Shown one piece after another: positions 30,476 to 35,790 of a DNA stretch of 35,790 nucleotides (position 1 is the first letter of the stretch; each line of letters begins with the position of its first letter). The DNA is taken from assembly GCA_937889595.1 (NCBI GenBank), contig CALAOR010000093.1:1-35790 (forward strand). Reading direction: 5' to 3'. The translations under genes and the position numbers were made by a program. This DNA is from an uncultured bacterium. GTDB lineage: Bacteria > Oederibacteriota > PGYV01 > Palsa-1178. The notes under the pieces were generated by a model, which was given only the letters and a program-made list of their open reading frames with translations, was not told the DNA's origin and did not search any database.

Positions 30476-30686
30476 GATACTGTCGGAATACCCTATAAAA
30501 CCATGAAATTCTTTATCGTGTCCGGTGCGGATGAAATTTTTCTATGGCCTGTGCGCCACTAAAACCCTTATAATACAAGCGCACAATCCATAGAAAAATT
30601 TTATCCGCACCGGACACGACTTATCATTAAGGCCATGTACCATTCGCAGTAGCTTAAGGTACATGGAATGCTTTTCCGGCAGTATC
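30476..30686. repeat. Large dispersed inverted-repeat element, copy 2, with short terminal inverted repeats
   Basis: Bases 30479-30650 match 26644-26852 closely apart from the loop insertion. The 31-base arms are 30517-30547 and 30588-30618, one mismatch. Outside them GATACTGTCGGAA (30476-30488) and TTCCGGCAGTATC (30674-30686) form a 13-base terminal inverted repeat with one mismatch, and CATGTACC/GGTACATG pair inside the right end. The right end touches the stop codon of the polygalacturonase gene. The rest of the gap 30276-30475 shows only the operon promoter. Confidence 0.88.
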
Positions 30687-32883
30687 ATCTTAGTATTATA
30701 AGCTCACTTGGTTTAGCCGCGGACTTTTTGCCTTCCGTTGATACGCCGGATATTACGGCATAATATATCCCCGCAGCAAGGGTGCCCACCTTCCCGGCGG
30801 GAATTACGAACGTGCTTTTCCCAGAAAAAACGCCCGTGAAGTTTTCCTCAGCGACACGCCTGTACGCAACCGTATATATGCGTATCCTGATGCTTTCGGC
30901 CGTACCTGTAATGAACGCCTGCATACTTAAGCCCCCATCAGCGGGCATATACGGGTTCGGGTACATCAGCGCGGCTGTTATTTCAAATCCGGCTGCCGGT
31001 GAAACAGTTTGCGTAGGGGAAACTGTAACGGTATTTGTTTGTATGGTTGTCCAGGTGCCTGTCGGCGAAGCTGTAAACGTTGTCACGGATGTCAATGTGA
31101 ATGTAACAGCCGGCGTGGCGGAATATGTGCTGACCGGGGTATTACTTTTGGTTATTGACGGTACAGCCGTGGTTGTCTGCGTCGCAGAGGCTGTTATTGT
31201 CTGTGTGCCGGTAAAAACAGCAGATGCAGTCCGGGTAACGGTGCCTGTAAATTGCATAGTTCCGGTTAAAGTGGCCGTCAAGCCCGGCGTTTTGCTTTCC
31301 GTAACCGTTGCCGTGAGAACCTGCGTTGCGGTAAGAAGCGGTGTGTATGTAATTGTGCTTATCTGTGTTTTCGTCATGGTATTTATTGTTGTAGATGTAG
31401 TTGTCACTGCAACCGTGGCGGAAAATGTCGGAGTAAATGTCCCTGTAAATGACCGCGTAATAGTCGGCGTTGACGTAACCGTTGTTGTAAATGTAAGAAC
31501 GGTTGCGGGTGTAAATGTCCCGGTAGGCGTGGCAGTTGTTGTCCGCGTGGCAGTTATTGTCCGCGTATAGGTTATTGTCGCAGTCCGCGTAAATGTCACT
31601 ATGGTAGTGGCCGTAGGCGTGTTTGTCGAACCGCAGGCCGGGTAATATATTGTGCCCGCGTCAAAGGCCCCCACATTGACCGGCGGCTGTGCCCCGTCAA
31701 CCCGGCACGTGCATGTGATGGTGACTCCCCTTGCGTGGTGAAATTCAAAATTAACTCCGCTGGGCCCGGTCACCTTGACATTATCCAGCAGGATATTCGT
31801 CATGGGCGCTTCAGTCACGGCCCACATAATACCCGGGCTCTTGGCTCCGCTGGCAGCTGTGGAAGCCGTAATATTCCTGAGGGTGATATTGCTCCAGTAT
31901 GGCGTTGTGCTTGTGACGGATTGCGTATCATCCGCCGTGGGAGGCAGTGATGATGGATTTGGATAAAAACTTGTCAGAAAAAACGGGTAAAGCATGATCC
32001 CTGTCATGGTTATATTTTGATAGGTCAGGTTGTTGTTTATCCCTCCGCGGTCCCGGCCGGTCTTCCATCGGATACCGTACTGGGTTCCGTTAAATACGCA
32101 GTTGTCCACCAGCAGGTTGCTCACCCCTGCCTGTGTGTAGCCGCCGATTGACAACCCGTGTCCTGTGCCAAATGAACAGTTGCGTATGATAACATTTGAA
32201 GTCGGGTCCGACGACCCGCCCAGCTGGATCACATCGTCCCCTCCGCTGATGTAGCAGTTTTCAATAAGGATATTATTGCCGCGCAGGTCAAACCCGTCTG
32301 TGTTGGGCGACGGCCACGCAGCTGTGATGGACAAACCCGAGGCGTAGACATTGGAAGATGTGCCTAATATCTGGATGTGAAATTTCGGGGAATCCTGCAC
32401 CGCAATGCCTGTCAGGGTCACGCCCGTGCAGCCTGAAAGATATATCATGGCCGGCGGCCGCCTTTCGACGCCGGTGGAGTTAAAATCAGCCCACCATTTC
32501 GCGCCCTGTCCGTCCATCACACCCGCGCCGGTTATGGAAATATTGGACAAATTTTTTCCGTAAAGGAAATACGCGTTATCGGTAAAAGTGTTCATGGGAA
32601 GCATTCTCAGGATGGCGCCGGATGCTATCTGGAAATTCATATTACTTTTCAGCGTTATGGGCCCGCCGCTCAAAAAAGTACCCGCAGGCACCAGCACCGT
32701 GTCCCCGCTTGCGGCCGCATTTACGGCGGCCTGTATGGCCGCGACATTGTCGGCGCTGGCGGTTGACGCGTTATATGGGGCGGAAGTAATGTTGATTATC
32801 GCGGCGTATGACGCGCCAAAAAAAACAAACATAAAGAAAAACAAAACAGCCGCAATTTTTTTCGTTAAAAAATAATTTTTCAT
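30685..32883 (-). CDS. GH28 polygalacturonase with Thr stalk and C-terminal sorting-like domain
   Basis: The product is 732 aa from the ATG at 32883, which begins a signal peptide (KKIAAVLFFFMFVFFGASYA); longer starts add a non-signal extension. Residues about 25-400 form a right-handed beta helix with all GH28 landmarks: NTDGFDLRG (about 195), GDDVIQLGG (about 214), GHGLSIGG (about 241) and RWKTGRDRGG (about 272), covering the catalytic Asp triad, the His and the Arg/Lys substrate contacts. It should hydrolyse alpha-1,4-galacturonan or a related polymer outside the cell. Residues about 420-625 are Thr-rich stalk. The C-terminus (MYPNPYMPADGGLSMQAF, AAGIYYAVISG, SELIILR) matches the 608-aa protein. 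This suggests a surface-held enzyme. A good promoter lies upstream. Confidence 0.93.
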   Translation of the reverse strand: MKNYFLTKKIAAVLFFFMFVFFGASYAAIINITSAPYNASTASADNVAAIQAAVNAAASGDTVLVPAGTFLSGGPITLKSNMNFQIASGAILRMLPMNTFTDNAYFLYGKNLSNISITGAGVMDGQGAKWWADFNSTGVERRPPAMIYLSGCTGVTLTGIAVQDSPKFHIQILGTSSNVYASGLSITAAWPSPNTDGFDLRGNNILIENCYISGGDDVIQLGGSSDPTSNVIIRNCSFGTGHGLSIGGYTQAGVSNLLVDNCVFNGTQYGIRWKTGRDRGGINNNLTYQNITMTGIMLYPFFLTSFYPNPSSLPPTADDTQSVTSTTPYWSNITLRNITASTAASGAKSPGIMWAVTEAPMTNILLDNVKVTGPSGVNFEFHHARGVTITCTCRVDGAQPPVNVGAFDAGTIYYPACGSTNTPTATTIVTFTRTATITYTRTITATRTTTATPTGTFTPATVLTFTTTVTSTPTITRSFTGTFTPTFSATVAVTTTSTTINTMTKTQISTITYTPLLTATQVLTATVTESKTPGLTATLTGTMQFTGTVTRTASAVFTGTQTITASATQTTTAVPSITKSNTPVSTYSATPAVTFTLTSVTTFTASPTGTWTTIQTNTVTVSPTQTVSPAAGFEITAALMYPNPYMPADGGLSMQAFITGTAESIRIRIYTVAYRRVAEENFTGVFSGKSTFVIPAGKVGTLAAGIYYAVISGVSTEGKKSAAKPSELIILR

Positions 32884-32950: not shown

Positions 32951-32979
32951 AATATATAAAACATTTCTGTATTAGTCAA
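32951..32979 (-). promoter_or_regulatory. Promoter of the polygalacturonase gene
   Basis: TTGACT, a 17-base spacer, then TATATT on the minus strand, about 67 bases before the ATG. It separates this gene from the lipoprotein group. Confidence 0.65.
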
Positions 32980-33005: not shown

Positions 33006-33707
33006 CTACGGCAGTACATAGAAAACCGATAATTTCGGGTTTTTTGTGATTATGCCGTAATCCCGGGAATAAAATACCGCTGTATTCTCCCCGGATAACT
33101 GCGACGCTTTCAGGATTATTCCCGGATATTGCCCCGGGTTTTGCAGCATATTTGCGACAAACGAATTGTCCAGGGTAAAGACTACCGTGTCCTTCCCCGG
33201 GTCAACCTCCTGGGAGTTGCTGATAGGGATAGTGTTATAATCGCCTGCTGCGCCCGGGTTTGTCCAGGTGTTTATCCCGTCATAAGCATTCCATGAAACG
33301 CCTGCTTCTAAAAAACCCCTTGTCAGCGCAAAAGCCATGACAGCAGCACTGCCTGATGACGAAGTGTCGACATGCAGGGTCAGGTACGCTTCTTTAACTT
33401 TGACGTTCGACGGCATAATATAGGAAGTATCAAATGAGATCAGTCCCCTGAATTCAGCTCCCTGTGATGACGACCATCCCGCAGTGATGAACAGGTCTGT
33501 CCCGAAATTTGCCGCAGGTAAACTGCTGTTTATGTAAGCGTCCCGGGTGCCCGCGTATTCGGCCGTGGGATAAACTGAATCCTGAAAAGAAACGCTTATC
33601 AATCCCGCGCCCGGAGCGCCCGGAGCGCCTTTGTCCCCCGCGCAGGAAAATAACGCAAGCCCTGTAATTGCGGCAAATAAAGCCGTAAAAAAAATATTTT
33701 TTTTCAT
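33006..33707 (-). CDS. DNRLRE-type lipoprotein with collagen-like linker, paralogue 1
   Basis: The product is 233 aa. A signal peptide with lipobox LFSC gives the lipid Cys at about 22; then AGDKGAPGAPGAG, a short Gly-x-x run like collagen. The remainder has the DNRLRE layout: TRDAYINSSLPAANFGTD, FRGLISFDTSYIMPSNVKV, KEAYLTLHVDTSSSG, VSWNAYDG, VFTLDNSFVANML and PKLSVFYVLP. DNRLRE domains are beta sandwiches of secreted proteins, some binding carbohydrate (CBM96 is related). GGATG lies ahead of the ATG. It is the last of three tandem paralogues, 21 bases after the previous one, and is likely held on a membrane face. The ligand is unknown. Confidence 0.85.
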   Translation of the reverse strand: MKKNIFFTALFAAITGLALFSCAGDKGAPGAPGAGLISVSFQDSVYPTAEYAGTRDAYINSSLPAANFGTDLFITAGWSSSQGAEFRGLISFDTSYIMPSNVKVKEAYLTLHVDTSSSGSAAVMAFALTRGFLEAGVSWNAYDGINTWTNPGAAGDYNTIPISNSQEVDPGKDTVVFTLDNSFVANMLQNPGQYPGIILKASQLSGENTAVFYSRDYGIITKNPKLSVFYVLP

Positions 33708-33728
33708 TTGATGCTCATCCTTTGCATT

Positions 33729-34439
33729 TTATCTCAGACAATAATATATGGTCAGCCTGGGGCGCTCAATAACAACGGGTTCCTCTTTTGTTGAAAAGTC
33801 GGCGTAATTCCCGCTTCCCGTTTCATTGTCCGCCTTTATCATAAAATTTACTGGGGATCTGCTATCCATCCAGTCTTGGAAACCAACTGCGTTTATTGTG
33901 AGCGTGACATATCCTGTGCCTGTTATAGTAACGGAATCGCTTACGGCTGACGCGGCAAACGCGCCGCCCGGCGCGCTCCAGGCAATCCCTGACGCAGAAT
34001 CGTTCCATGTCGCGCTTCCTGCGGCGCCTGTGCATGCGCCTAATCCTTCATCCCACGGCACCGACATTTTATACGCGCGGATAGACACGCTTCCGGTTAA
34101 CTGCTGCACATAAAGGCTAAGGTAGGCTTTTATTGCCGTTACGTGCGGCAGCTGGTCCGATGTGTCAAATTTTACCAAAAGCCTGCTGATATTACCCGGG
34201 CCTGTTATCCCGGCTCTCATTGTAACGCATCCGCCGTAATTGCCGTCGGGAGCCCCGTTTTGTATGTATGTATCTGCTGTGAACGCGGAATCACTGAAAG
34301 GATATAATCCATCCTGCATGTTCAGCATCAATATACCTTCGGTGCCCGTCACCCCGGCAGGGCCGGCCGCGCCTTTACGGCACGATAACAGGAACACGGT
34401 TATTGCCGCTAAAAGCAGTAACATAAACTTTTTCTTCAT
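33729..34439 (-). CDS. DNRLRE-type lipoprotein with collagen-like linker, paralogue 2
   Basis: The product is 236 aa. The lipobox is LLSC (Cys about 20), followed by RKGAAGPAGVTGTEG, Gly at every third place. The DNRLRE body reads ADTYIQNGAPDGNYGGC (close to the family's DTYIxxxxPxxNYG signature), ISRLLVKFDTSDQLPHVTAI, KAYLSLYVQQLTG, VSIRAYKMSVPWDEG, SATWNDSASG, VTLTINAVGFQDWM and RLTIYYCLR. Upstream signal for ribosomes is weak (AAAGGCGG, somewhat distant). It sits 12 bases after paralogue 3 in the same transcript. Confidence 0.87.
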   Translation of the reverse strand: MKKKFMLLLLAAITVFLLSCRKGAAGPAGVTGTEGILMLNMQDGLYPFSDSAFTADTYIQNGAPDGNYGGCVTMRAGITGPGNISRLLVKFDTSDQLPHVTAIKAYLSLYVQQLTGSVSIRAYKMSVPWDEGLGACTGAAGSATWNDSASGIAWSAPGGAFAASAVSDSVTITGTGYVTLTINAVGFQDWMDSRSPVNFMIKADNETGSGNYADFSTKEEPVVIERPRLTIYYCLR

Positions 34440-34451
34440 TGCCGGCCGCCT

Positions 34452-35165
34452 TTAATTAATATTGTAATATATCTTAAGAACAGGTGCAAAAGCCACATTT
34501 TCTTTTGTATAAAATGCAATTGAGTCATATACTGAAGTATCCTCGTTATCTCCTTTTAAAAGCAGTCCGTTGTTCTGCGAAGGATCGTCAACCCATGACT
34601 GTATTATTCCGGGGTTTACGGGAAATACAACGTAGGTACCTTCATCAGCTGCCGAACAAAACACCGGCGGGCCCGCCGCAATATCAAAAGAACCACCAGT
34701 CCAGGGATTTACGCCGTCTGTCGACCAGGCCGCGCCGGCAGCGGCTATTCCGTTTGCGGAGCCTTCGAGCCAGCTTTGGGTTACCCTGTATGCTGTTATG
34801 GTATTGGAATTACCGGATCCTGTAAAGTAACAATAAAGTTCCAGGGAGGCTTTTGTTATAACCGCATTTGAGGGAAGATCATTGGACAGGTCAAATTTGA
34901 TAAGCATCCTGTTTATCCCTAAAATACCGGCAGGACCGACAGGCGCACCTGTCGAACTTCCGTAATTAAAGTTCTGGCTACCGCTTGAGATATAGCTGTC
35001 AATAGAACCCATATAAGCCAAAGTGGGCTGGGAATCCTGTTTAAAAATAATTAATACCGAACCGTTTGAGCCGTCAGGGCCAGCCGGACCCTTACCGCCT
35101 TTGCAGGAAGTAAAAAACAGACCAGCCACCAGCATCAACATTAATAAGGACGATGTTTTTTTCAA
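34452..35165 (-). CDS. DNRLRE-type lipoprotein with collagen-like linker, paralogue 3
   Basis: The product is 237 aa from a TTG start at 35165 (LKKTSSLLMLMLVAGLF read with Met first); GAGG lies nine bases before it, and no later Met would keep the Lys-Lys signal head. The lipobox is FTSC (Cys about 21), then KGGKGPAGPDGSNGS. The body has DSYISSGSQNFNYGS, INRMLIKFDLSNDLPSNAVI, KASLELYCYFTG, VTQSWLEGSANG, IIQSWVDDPSQNNGLLLKGD and LKIYYNIN. It is first of the three and lies 76 bases after the FlgD-Ig gene. Similar order and spacing point to local tandem duplication followed by divergence. Confidence 0.85.
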   Translation of the reverse strand: MKKTSSLLMLMLVAGLFFTSCKGGKGPAGPDGSNGSVLIIFKQDSQPTLAYMGSIDSYISSGSQNFNYGSSTGAPVGPAGILGINRMLIKFDLSNDLPSNAVITKASLELYCYFTGSGNSNTITAYRVTQSWLEGSANGIAAAGAAWSTDGVNPWTGGSFDIAAGPPVFCSAADEGTYVVFPVNPGIIQSWVDDPSQNNGLLLKGDNEDTSVYDSIAFYTKENVAFAPVLKIYYNIN

Positions 35166-35241: not shown

Positions 35242-35790
35242 TTACTGCGTTGACACCGACATTCTGTTCACATATAATTTAACCTTTAAATTTCCCCTGT
35301 TGCCGCTGCTGGACACACCCTGCAGTACGGCCACATACAATCCGTTTGAGACCTGATTTCCCCTGGATGATGTAATATCCCACATTGCGCTCCCGGTTTC
35401 AAGCTTTGCATAAATCACGCGGACAAGTTCGCCCTTTAAATTATAAATATTGATCACCACGGTTCCCGTATCATTTGCGCCCCAGCGCAATTCAATGCCA
35501 TTCCCTGTGCCGTCGTACGGATTTGGCACGGCTTTAATGTCGCTTAAAAAACCGCCGTCCAGCTTCAATACTGTCACATTGCTTGATGCGACCGCTATCA
35601 GCATAGCTTCTGTCTTAATAAGGATCTTCGCCACATAAACCCCGCTGGAAACGGCCATCCCATTATTATTTTTTCCGTCCCAGAGCATGAAATCATTGGC
35701 CGGCGTTCCAAACCTGATCTGAACCGGAGCCGCATTGCCCTTATTTGACAATATGAGCGCGGGGACGTCCATATTCACTCCTGTGGCGGG
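35242..35790 (-). CDS. C-terminal part of a FlgD-Ig surface protein (cut by the window edge)
   Basis: The frame is open to the right edge, so the start is beyond it; the 182 visible residues are the C-terminus. Two FlgD-like Ig units are seen: FMLWDGKNNNGMAVSSGVYV with IKTEA, and IKAVPNPYDGTGNGIELRWG followed by INIYNLKGELVRVIYA, LETGSAMWDITSSRG and SNGLYVAVLQG. The end is KVKLYVNRMSVSTQ. It aligns well with the end of the 1281-aa protein ([27 protein letters not shown]). No Thr stalk is visible in this part. It may lead the transcript of the three lipoproteins. Confidence 0.85.
   Translation of the reverse strand, partial: PATGVNMDVPALILSNKGNAAPVQIRFGTPANDFMLWDGKNNNGMAVSSGVYVAKILIKTEAMLIAVASSNVTVLKLDGGFLSDIKAVPNPYDGTGNGIELRWGANDTGTVVINIYNLKGELVRVIYAKLETGSAMWDITSSRGNQVSNGLYVAVLQGVSSSGNRGNLKVKLYVNRMSVSTQ

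Follow-up and report, generated by a model that had tools for sequence, protein, structure and literature searches.

Tandem lipoproteins with a collagen-like stalk and a DNRLRE head in an uncultured Oederibacteriota bacterium

Near one end of a contig from an uncultured member of the Oederibacteriota, three adjacent genes encode predicted lipoproteins. What are these proteins, and what might they bind at the cell surface? A sequence-only reading had described each of them as a lipid-anchored Cys, a collagen-like Gly-X-Y spacer and a DNRLRE body, and had proposed that they may hold polysaccharide, with pectin and alginate as ligands to try, as a polygalacturonase lies nearby; it had added that the spacer could allow trimers. 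We compared the three proteins with their relatives in 45 genomes of the phylum, with domain families, and with solved structures.

Three tandem genes with one design

The window (the whole stretch of DNA that we analyzed) is the complete contig C93, which is 35,790 bases long and belongs to a genome of 3.42 Mb in 93 contigs that is 99% complete. Three minus-strand open reading frames of 233, 236 and 237 amino acids occupy positions 33006-35165 in tandem, with 12 nucleotides between genes 1 and 2 and 21 nucleotides between genes 2 and 3. The features are:

34452..35165, minus strand: DNRLRE lipoprotein 1; 237 amino acids, TTG start, lipid Cys21; DNRLRE 83.8 bits, CBM96 42 bits; fold modelled
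33729..34439, minus strand: DNRLRE lipoprotein 2; 236 amino acids, lipid Cys20; DNRLRE 62.9 bits, CBM96 35.1 bits
33006..33707, minus strand: DNRLRE lipoprotein 3; 233 amino acids, lipid Cys22; DNRLRE 68.0 bits
35055..35099, minus strand: stalk of lipoprotein 1; five Gly-X-Y triplets, residues 23-37
34329..34373, minus strand: stalk of lipoprotein 2; five Gly-X-Y triplets, residues 23-37
33603..33638, minus strand: stalk of lipoprotein 3; four Gly-X-Y triplets, residues 24-35
30685..32883, minus strand: secreted GH28 polygalacturonase-type enzyme with a Thr-rich linker; Pfam GH28, E 2.1e-48
35242..35790, minus strand: upstream neighbor, C-terminal part with a final FlgD/T9SS-tail-like Ig domain; the contig ends within the gene
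32951..32979, minus strand: promoter-like TTGACT-17-TATATT between the array and the GH28 gene; 10 of 12 consensus positions, a consensus match only

All three proteins have a signal peptide and a lipobox (called by our own pattern and a hydrophobicity rule, not by SignalP), and an uninterrupted Gly-X-Y run begins 2 to 3 residues past the lipid Cys. All three bodies exceed the cutoff of the NCBIfam DNRLRE domain (NF033679, 34 bits). Lipoproteins 1 and 2 also exceed the cutoff of Pfam CBM96 (PF24517, 26 bits), and 33006-33707 is not listed for that family at E ≤ 1. The reading frames, lipoboxes, triplets and DNRLRE scores bear out the description of three tandem lipoproteins with a shared design, and the domain search that it had suggested is passed by three of three for DNRLRE and by two of three for CBM96. 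In PHROGs, two of the three match one unnamed family.

The proteins had also been said to diverge strongly while keeping their design, and they do: in our alignment, the bodies are 26.6-31.9% identical. In a maximum-likelihood tree, in which 9 of the 28 inner branches have good support, the three paralogs have long branches and do not form a clade. Given this low identity and the lack of grouping, the paralogs look old rather than freshly triplicated, and a recent triplication is not supported, with the proviso that the tree is poorly resolved. The array might be missing upstream members, because the end of the window at 35790 is also the end of the contig.

The GH28 gene is the next gene downstream, so the reported proximity to a polygalacturonase stands; however, a separate promoter-like sequence precedes this gene. 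Because of that site, it looks as if the three lipoprotein genes are transcribed as one unit and the GH28 gene separately, although the region contains 19 such promoter-like sites, as compared with 8.8 in shuffled sequences. The start of the GH28 gene is likelier to be the ATG at 32883 than the listed TTG at 32979: a signal-peptide-like stretch (judged by eye) follows the ATG, and the TTG sits in the promoter-like site. A perfect TTGACA-17-TATAAT (12 of 12) lies on the plus strand at 35250-35278 of the window; it faces away from the array and is antisense to the gene with the FlgD-type tail.

The design recurs and its tether is modular

Lipoproteins with a collagen-like stalk and a DNRLRE head recur in related bacteria of the order. 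DNRLRE matches at E ≤ 0.001 are present in 21 of the 45 genomes of the phylum. We examined 53 of these 58 matches and excluded 5 that were weak or fragmentary. By our own rule, 36 of the 53 have a lipobox and 17 do not; five of the 36 (from G038, G041, G042 and G045) have an unlike architecture and were set aside, which leaves 31 DNRLRE lipoproteins. Among these 31, 22 have at least four Gly-X-Y triplets, one has three, and eight have a Thr/Pro spacer instead. We aligned the bodies of 29 of the 31 (alignment A1) and the tethers of 20 of the 22 with Gly-X-Y runs (alignment A4). Other tandem arrays are found in G013:C1 (three genes), G009:C264 (two) and G010:C56 (two, with Thr/Pro spacers).

A profile of the tether, which covers the first 44 residues, has eight matches in this genome at E ≤ 1.5e-7, and the next match is at E 0.0017. 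Across the phylum, it has 38 matches in 18 of 45 genomes at E ≤ 1e-5. This clear drop in E values, together with the recurrence across the phylum, implies that the tether design is more than chance. The same profile had no matches in 14 genomes from other phyla, which shows little for a profile that was built from this phylum; a contig scan of genomes with one head gave a single weak locus, in Bacteroidales (L090).

The tether is modular, with at least four kinds of body in this phylum. As assigned by reading, the 38 bodies are 24 DNRLRE, 5 LamG/ConA-like, 6 with a domain of 110 amino acids, 1 other small domain, and 2 that are beta-helix-like. (One of the 24 DNRLRE bodies is cut by a contig end, and two have no profile match, one of which is 42% identical to a member.) In this genome, DNRLRE is the body on six of the eight tethers; the other two, on C68 and C42, have another kind.

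Some other proteins deserve mention. The 110-amino-acid domain, on collagen-like, lipid-anchored stalks, occurs in one taxonomic family within the phylum (L133, L135, L139, L141, L150 and L151); three of these proteins were scanned and had no convincing Pfam match except a weak one to Collagen. The beta-helix-like lipoproteins (L143:1501-2490 and L152:625-1620) have 10-11 Gly-X-Y triplets, the longest stalks that we counted. Four DNRLRE lipoproteins form a well-supported clade (L021:9082-11140, L052:1-2514, L056:8332-10410 and L062:17177-19230). Each lies beside a lipoprotein of about 430 amino acids (one is cut by a contig end) that has no Pfam match above the cutoff, so that this subclass and its partner are a conserved two-gene module at four loci. 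Beside the Thr/Pro-spacer DNRLRE lipoproteins of G010, there is a RhuM-Fic fusion (L054:8486-9646).

The stalk has a collagen-like composition

Across the 20 aligned tethers, Gly never changes at three positions and hardly changes at two others, while the X and Y positions are variable. The 22 DNRLRE tethers have runs of 4-8 triplets; the longest run among the other tethers has 11. We counted residues in the 215 triplets of 36 tethers (22 DNRLRE tethers and 14 others, with G002:C94 cut before its start codon), leaving out four tether matches (G002:C177, G003:C105, G017:C122 and G030:C28). Pro occupies X in 108 cases and Y in 19, and Thr occupies X in 13 and Y in 54, but these are kin sequences, so the significance is overstated. 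Lys and Arg together are at X 5 times and at Y 17 times, and acidic residues show no bias (27 at X and 25 at Y). Pro at X, Thr at Y, and Lys or Arg at Y are biases of bacterial collagens. Thus, the bias of the spacer is collagen-like. Pfam Collagen matches only 1 of the 29 members of A1 at E ≤ 0.01.

Judging from the sequences, the stalks could possibly form trimers. The strict Gly phase and the bias at X and Y speak for trimer formation; the short length and the replacement by Thr/Pro spacers speak against a trimer being essential. Short Gly-X-Y runs without hydroxyproline are not expected to trimerize unaided. In Scl proteins, an N-terminal domain nucleates trimerization (review PMC8968730).

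The stalk might instead be a mere flexible, low-complexity spacer without collagen-type structure, which would fit any function of the head. This is quite possible, if somewhat doubtful. The runs of the DNRLRE members are short, 8 of the 31 DNRLRE lipoproteins manage with a Thr/Pro spacer at the same place, and the stalk is a coil in the AlphaFold2 monomer. On the other hand, the Gly phase is unbroken amid divergence elsewhere, and the asymmetry of Pro and Thr, even if kinship overstates its significance, is strong and is unlike that of a plain flexible linker.

The head has a DNRLRE fold

We modelled one of the three lipoproteins, 34452-35165, along with 28 relatives. The AlphaFold2 model (pLDDT 90.2, pTM 0.82) is all beta. 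Among the matches listed, which are structures ranked by Foldseek, the nearest solved folds are two carbohydrate-binding modules, 8wab (Z 19.0, rmsd 3.1, 171 aligned, 20% identity) and 7vbo (Z 15.5, rmsd 2.7, 158 aligned), and the same two rank first in a profile search of PDB sequences (E 1.2e-8 for 7vbo and 5.5e-6 for 8wab). The profile scores and the model agree with the DNRLRE fold of the sequence-only reading. Some homologs also lie near carbohydrate enzymes (GH43, GH5 and GH30/59), so that neither of the two outcomes it had named as counting against it is seen.

By analogy with these two solved relatives, the heads most likely bind a glycan, although the DNRLRE fold serves other jobs too, in BamH and in TGF-beta prodomains. 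In CBM96, mutations point to Lys10, Lys22, Lys25, Lys27, Lys31, Arg36 and Tyr159 as the residues that bind alginate (PMC9971899). We did not find this Lys cluster across the 29 aligned members: basic residues occupy the five Lys columns in 1, 1, 4, 1 and 1 of 29 (by sequence alignment only). A conserved Arg (27 of 29) is one alignment column off the essential Arg36, and the Tyr159 column varies. The heads are acidic, with isoelectric points of 4.13, 4.60 and 4.47 in gene order. Because the Lys columns are not basic and the heads are acidic, the heads are unlikely to offer pectin or alginate a basic groove.

The two non-DNRLRE heads of this genome seem to have another fold. A model of the C68 head, built from five sequences only (pLDDT 65, pTM 0.70), has a ConA-type fold; its matches include a domain of sialidase BT_1020 (5mqr, Z 18.0, rmsd 3.1, 179 amino acids), lectin domains that bind sialic acid, and many lectins and glucanases with the ConA fold. 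The C42 head was assigned by homology to C68. According to these models, all eight tethers of this genome carry heads of folds that are used by carbohydrate-binding modules, and the two folds are unrelated. Of the arguments for glycan binding, this is the main new one, although fold alone shows no function.

After 8wab and 7vbo, the next folds are prodomains of the TGF-beta family (4yci_B, Z 11.8, rmsd 3.3, 150 aligned). When the A1 profile was compared to all PDB sequences, there were six matches at E ≤ 10. Two are the DNRLRE modules, and the other four, which are weak (best E 0.039), are precursor chains of the TGF-beta family (three of GDF8 and one of BMP9). The DNRLRE profile and GDF8 have in common a collinear motif, W-x-x-x-P-x-x-N-x-G. 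Pfam TGFb_propeptide matches 4 of the 29 members at E ≤ 0.01 (best 2.9e-4), and its cutoff is passed in DNRLRE genes of 3 of the 45 genomes. The likeness was noted for the bodies at 33006-35165 of the window and also at L050:5101-5802, L070, L071 and L076. The likeness in fold, together with the weak sequence matches, suggests common descent. In the open-access literature that we searched, we found general papers only, and none on this relation. The DNRLRE likeness may bear on the origin of the TGF-beta prodomain, an animal signaling module, which would then have a possible bacterial root.

What might the lipoproteins do?

The genome contains LolA and Omp85/BamA-type genes, as expected of a diderm. 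In E. coli, Asp after the lipid Cys is an inner-membrane retention signal; none of the 36 tethers has Asp at this position, where the window proteins have Lys, Arg or Ala. On balance, we favor the view that these are outer-membrane stalk-and-head lipoproteins whose heads probably hold a glycan. Three old paralogs, probably in one operon, would encode them. The signal peptide would be cleaved at the lipobox, the Cys would be lipidated, and Lol-type export would carry the proteins to the outer membrane. There, an extended collagen-type stalk, whose 4-5 triplets would measure about 4 nm at full length, would keep the beta-sandwich head off the membrane, and the head would bind a glycan, with a ligand preference that may differ for each paralog. 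We infer the single transcript, the export to the outer membrane, the surface exposure, the glycan binding and the division of labor among the three.

Do the neighboring genes reveal the ligand? The window's GH28 is the sole GH28 of its genome. Ten of the 45 genomes have GH28, with 12 loci in all, and among these only the window's shares a contig with a DNRLRE match; none of the 11 others does, including the congener's GH28, though this is a weak test since the contigs are short. Apart from the window's own neighbors (6 of the 172 listed), we scanned 20. A GH43 adjoins G000:C77, a GH30/59 with malectin is 3.6 kb from the gene in G004, and a GH5 with malectin is in the cluster in G010. A ricin-type lectin protein is near G009:C7, and a solute-binding protein is by G009:C264; the other scanned neighbors are mixed or have no assignment. 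The pairing of GH43 with DNRLRE at G000:C77 is not repeated, as none of 15 other listed GH43 places shares a contig with a DNRLRE match. Carbohydrate-enzyme neighbors are thus not conserved: GH28 and GH43 are each beside DNRLRE at one locus only.

It is therefore quite improbable that this is a pectin-capture operon, with the three heads keeping pectin at hand for the adjoining polygalacturonase. The adjacency to the only GH28 of the genome suggests it, but the pairing is absent elsewhere, a promoter-like site precedes the GH28 gene, and binding of polygalacturonate in a basic groove is improbable for heads this acidic. The proposed link to pectin or alginate is thus not supported, on three counts: the GH28 pairing, the CBM96 Lys residues, and the charge of the bodies. 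Alternatively, the heads might have a role in cell-cell or matrix adhesion instead of feeding: they would bind the cell's own exopolysaccharide or an S-layer-like coat, which may also be what archaeal DNRLRE proteins of the disaggregatase type do. DNRLRE was first described in cell-surface proteins of Methanosarcina (PMC2447325), Pfam Disaggr_repeat matches 19 of the 29 members, and no enzyme partner is conserved. However, the 20 neighbors scanned include no matrix gene cluster, and in the window a polygalacturonase is next door. Adhesion seems to be on the unlikely side.

Another idea is that the proteins are accessories of outer-membrane biogenesis, like the lipoprotein BamH at the BAM machine. 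The fold matches include 9hjm_G (Z 9.6) and 9n2d_C (Z 11.4, rmsd 9.9), a chain of the BAM complex that we take to be BamH. In Bacteroidota, the BamG-proximal domain of BamH has the same fold (PMC12611786). However, BamH is essential and has two domains (517 residues in the 9n2d chain), whereas the window proteins have one domain; there are up to eight divergent copies per genome, and fewer than half of the phylum's genomes have DNRLRE matches at E ≤ 0.001; and none of the window's scanned reading frames is a BAM gene. We consider such a role highly improbable.

If, as we favor, the heads bind glycans, and if the stalk trimerizes, then this would be a general and minimal way to display multivalent lectins in a little-known diderm phylum, and the short collagen stalk would have a function besides the one it has in known bacterial adhesins. 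Trimers aside, it may be asked what selects for 4-8 phase-locked Gly-X-Y triplets with a collagen-type bias, where Thr/Pro spacers also serve.

Comparison with known systems

In the open-access literature (titles and the starts of abstracts), we found no description of DNRLRE lipoproteins with collagen stalks, and none of the papers found there on collagen-like lipoproteins shows this design. The best fold match to the window head, 8wab, is a chondroitin-sulfate-binding DNRLRE module that, by its title, is presumably part of a chondroitinase. CBM96, as in Defluviitalea Dp0100 TM6-N4 (7vbo), resembles the window proteins in its profile (in two of three), its beta-sandwich, and the Arg near Arg36. 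However, it is a module of a lyase, whereas the window proteins are acidic, stand-alone lipoproteins without the alginate-binding Lys cluster. BamH of Bacteroidota is, as here, a lipoprotein with a DNRLRE-like domain, but it is a subunit of BAM, and the word "collagen" is absent from the paper that describes it (PMC12611786).

The bacterial collagen-like proteins Scl, Lcl and Bucl share uninterrupted Gly-X-Y with the window stalks, and Bucl8 is a predicted lipoprotein too (PMC4565658). Bucl regions have 3 to 63 triplets and vary among strains (same source), whereas the DNRLRE stalks here have 4-8 triplets and lie at the lipid end, with no known trimerization domain.

The collectins, ficolins and C1q of animals are soluble and have long, hydroxylated stalks and heads that are unrelated to DNRLRE, so we claim no membership. 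The resemblance is in how they work: a collagen stalk joined to a recognition head. A bolder reading, which we think rather unlikely, is that the window proteins are independent bacterial counterparts of the collectins. Their stalks would form trimers, giving three-headed, multivalent glycan receptors on the outer membrane, and the stalk would be a cassette that is fused in this phylum to several unrelated heads of sugar-binding type (including DNRLRE and sialidase-lectin-like ones), so that one genome might hold a small set of interchangeable surface lectins.
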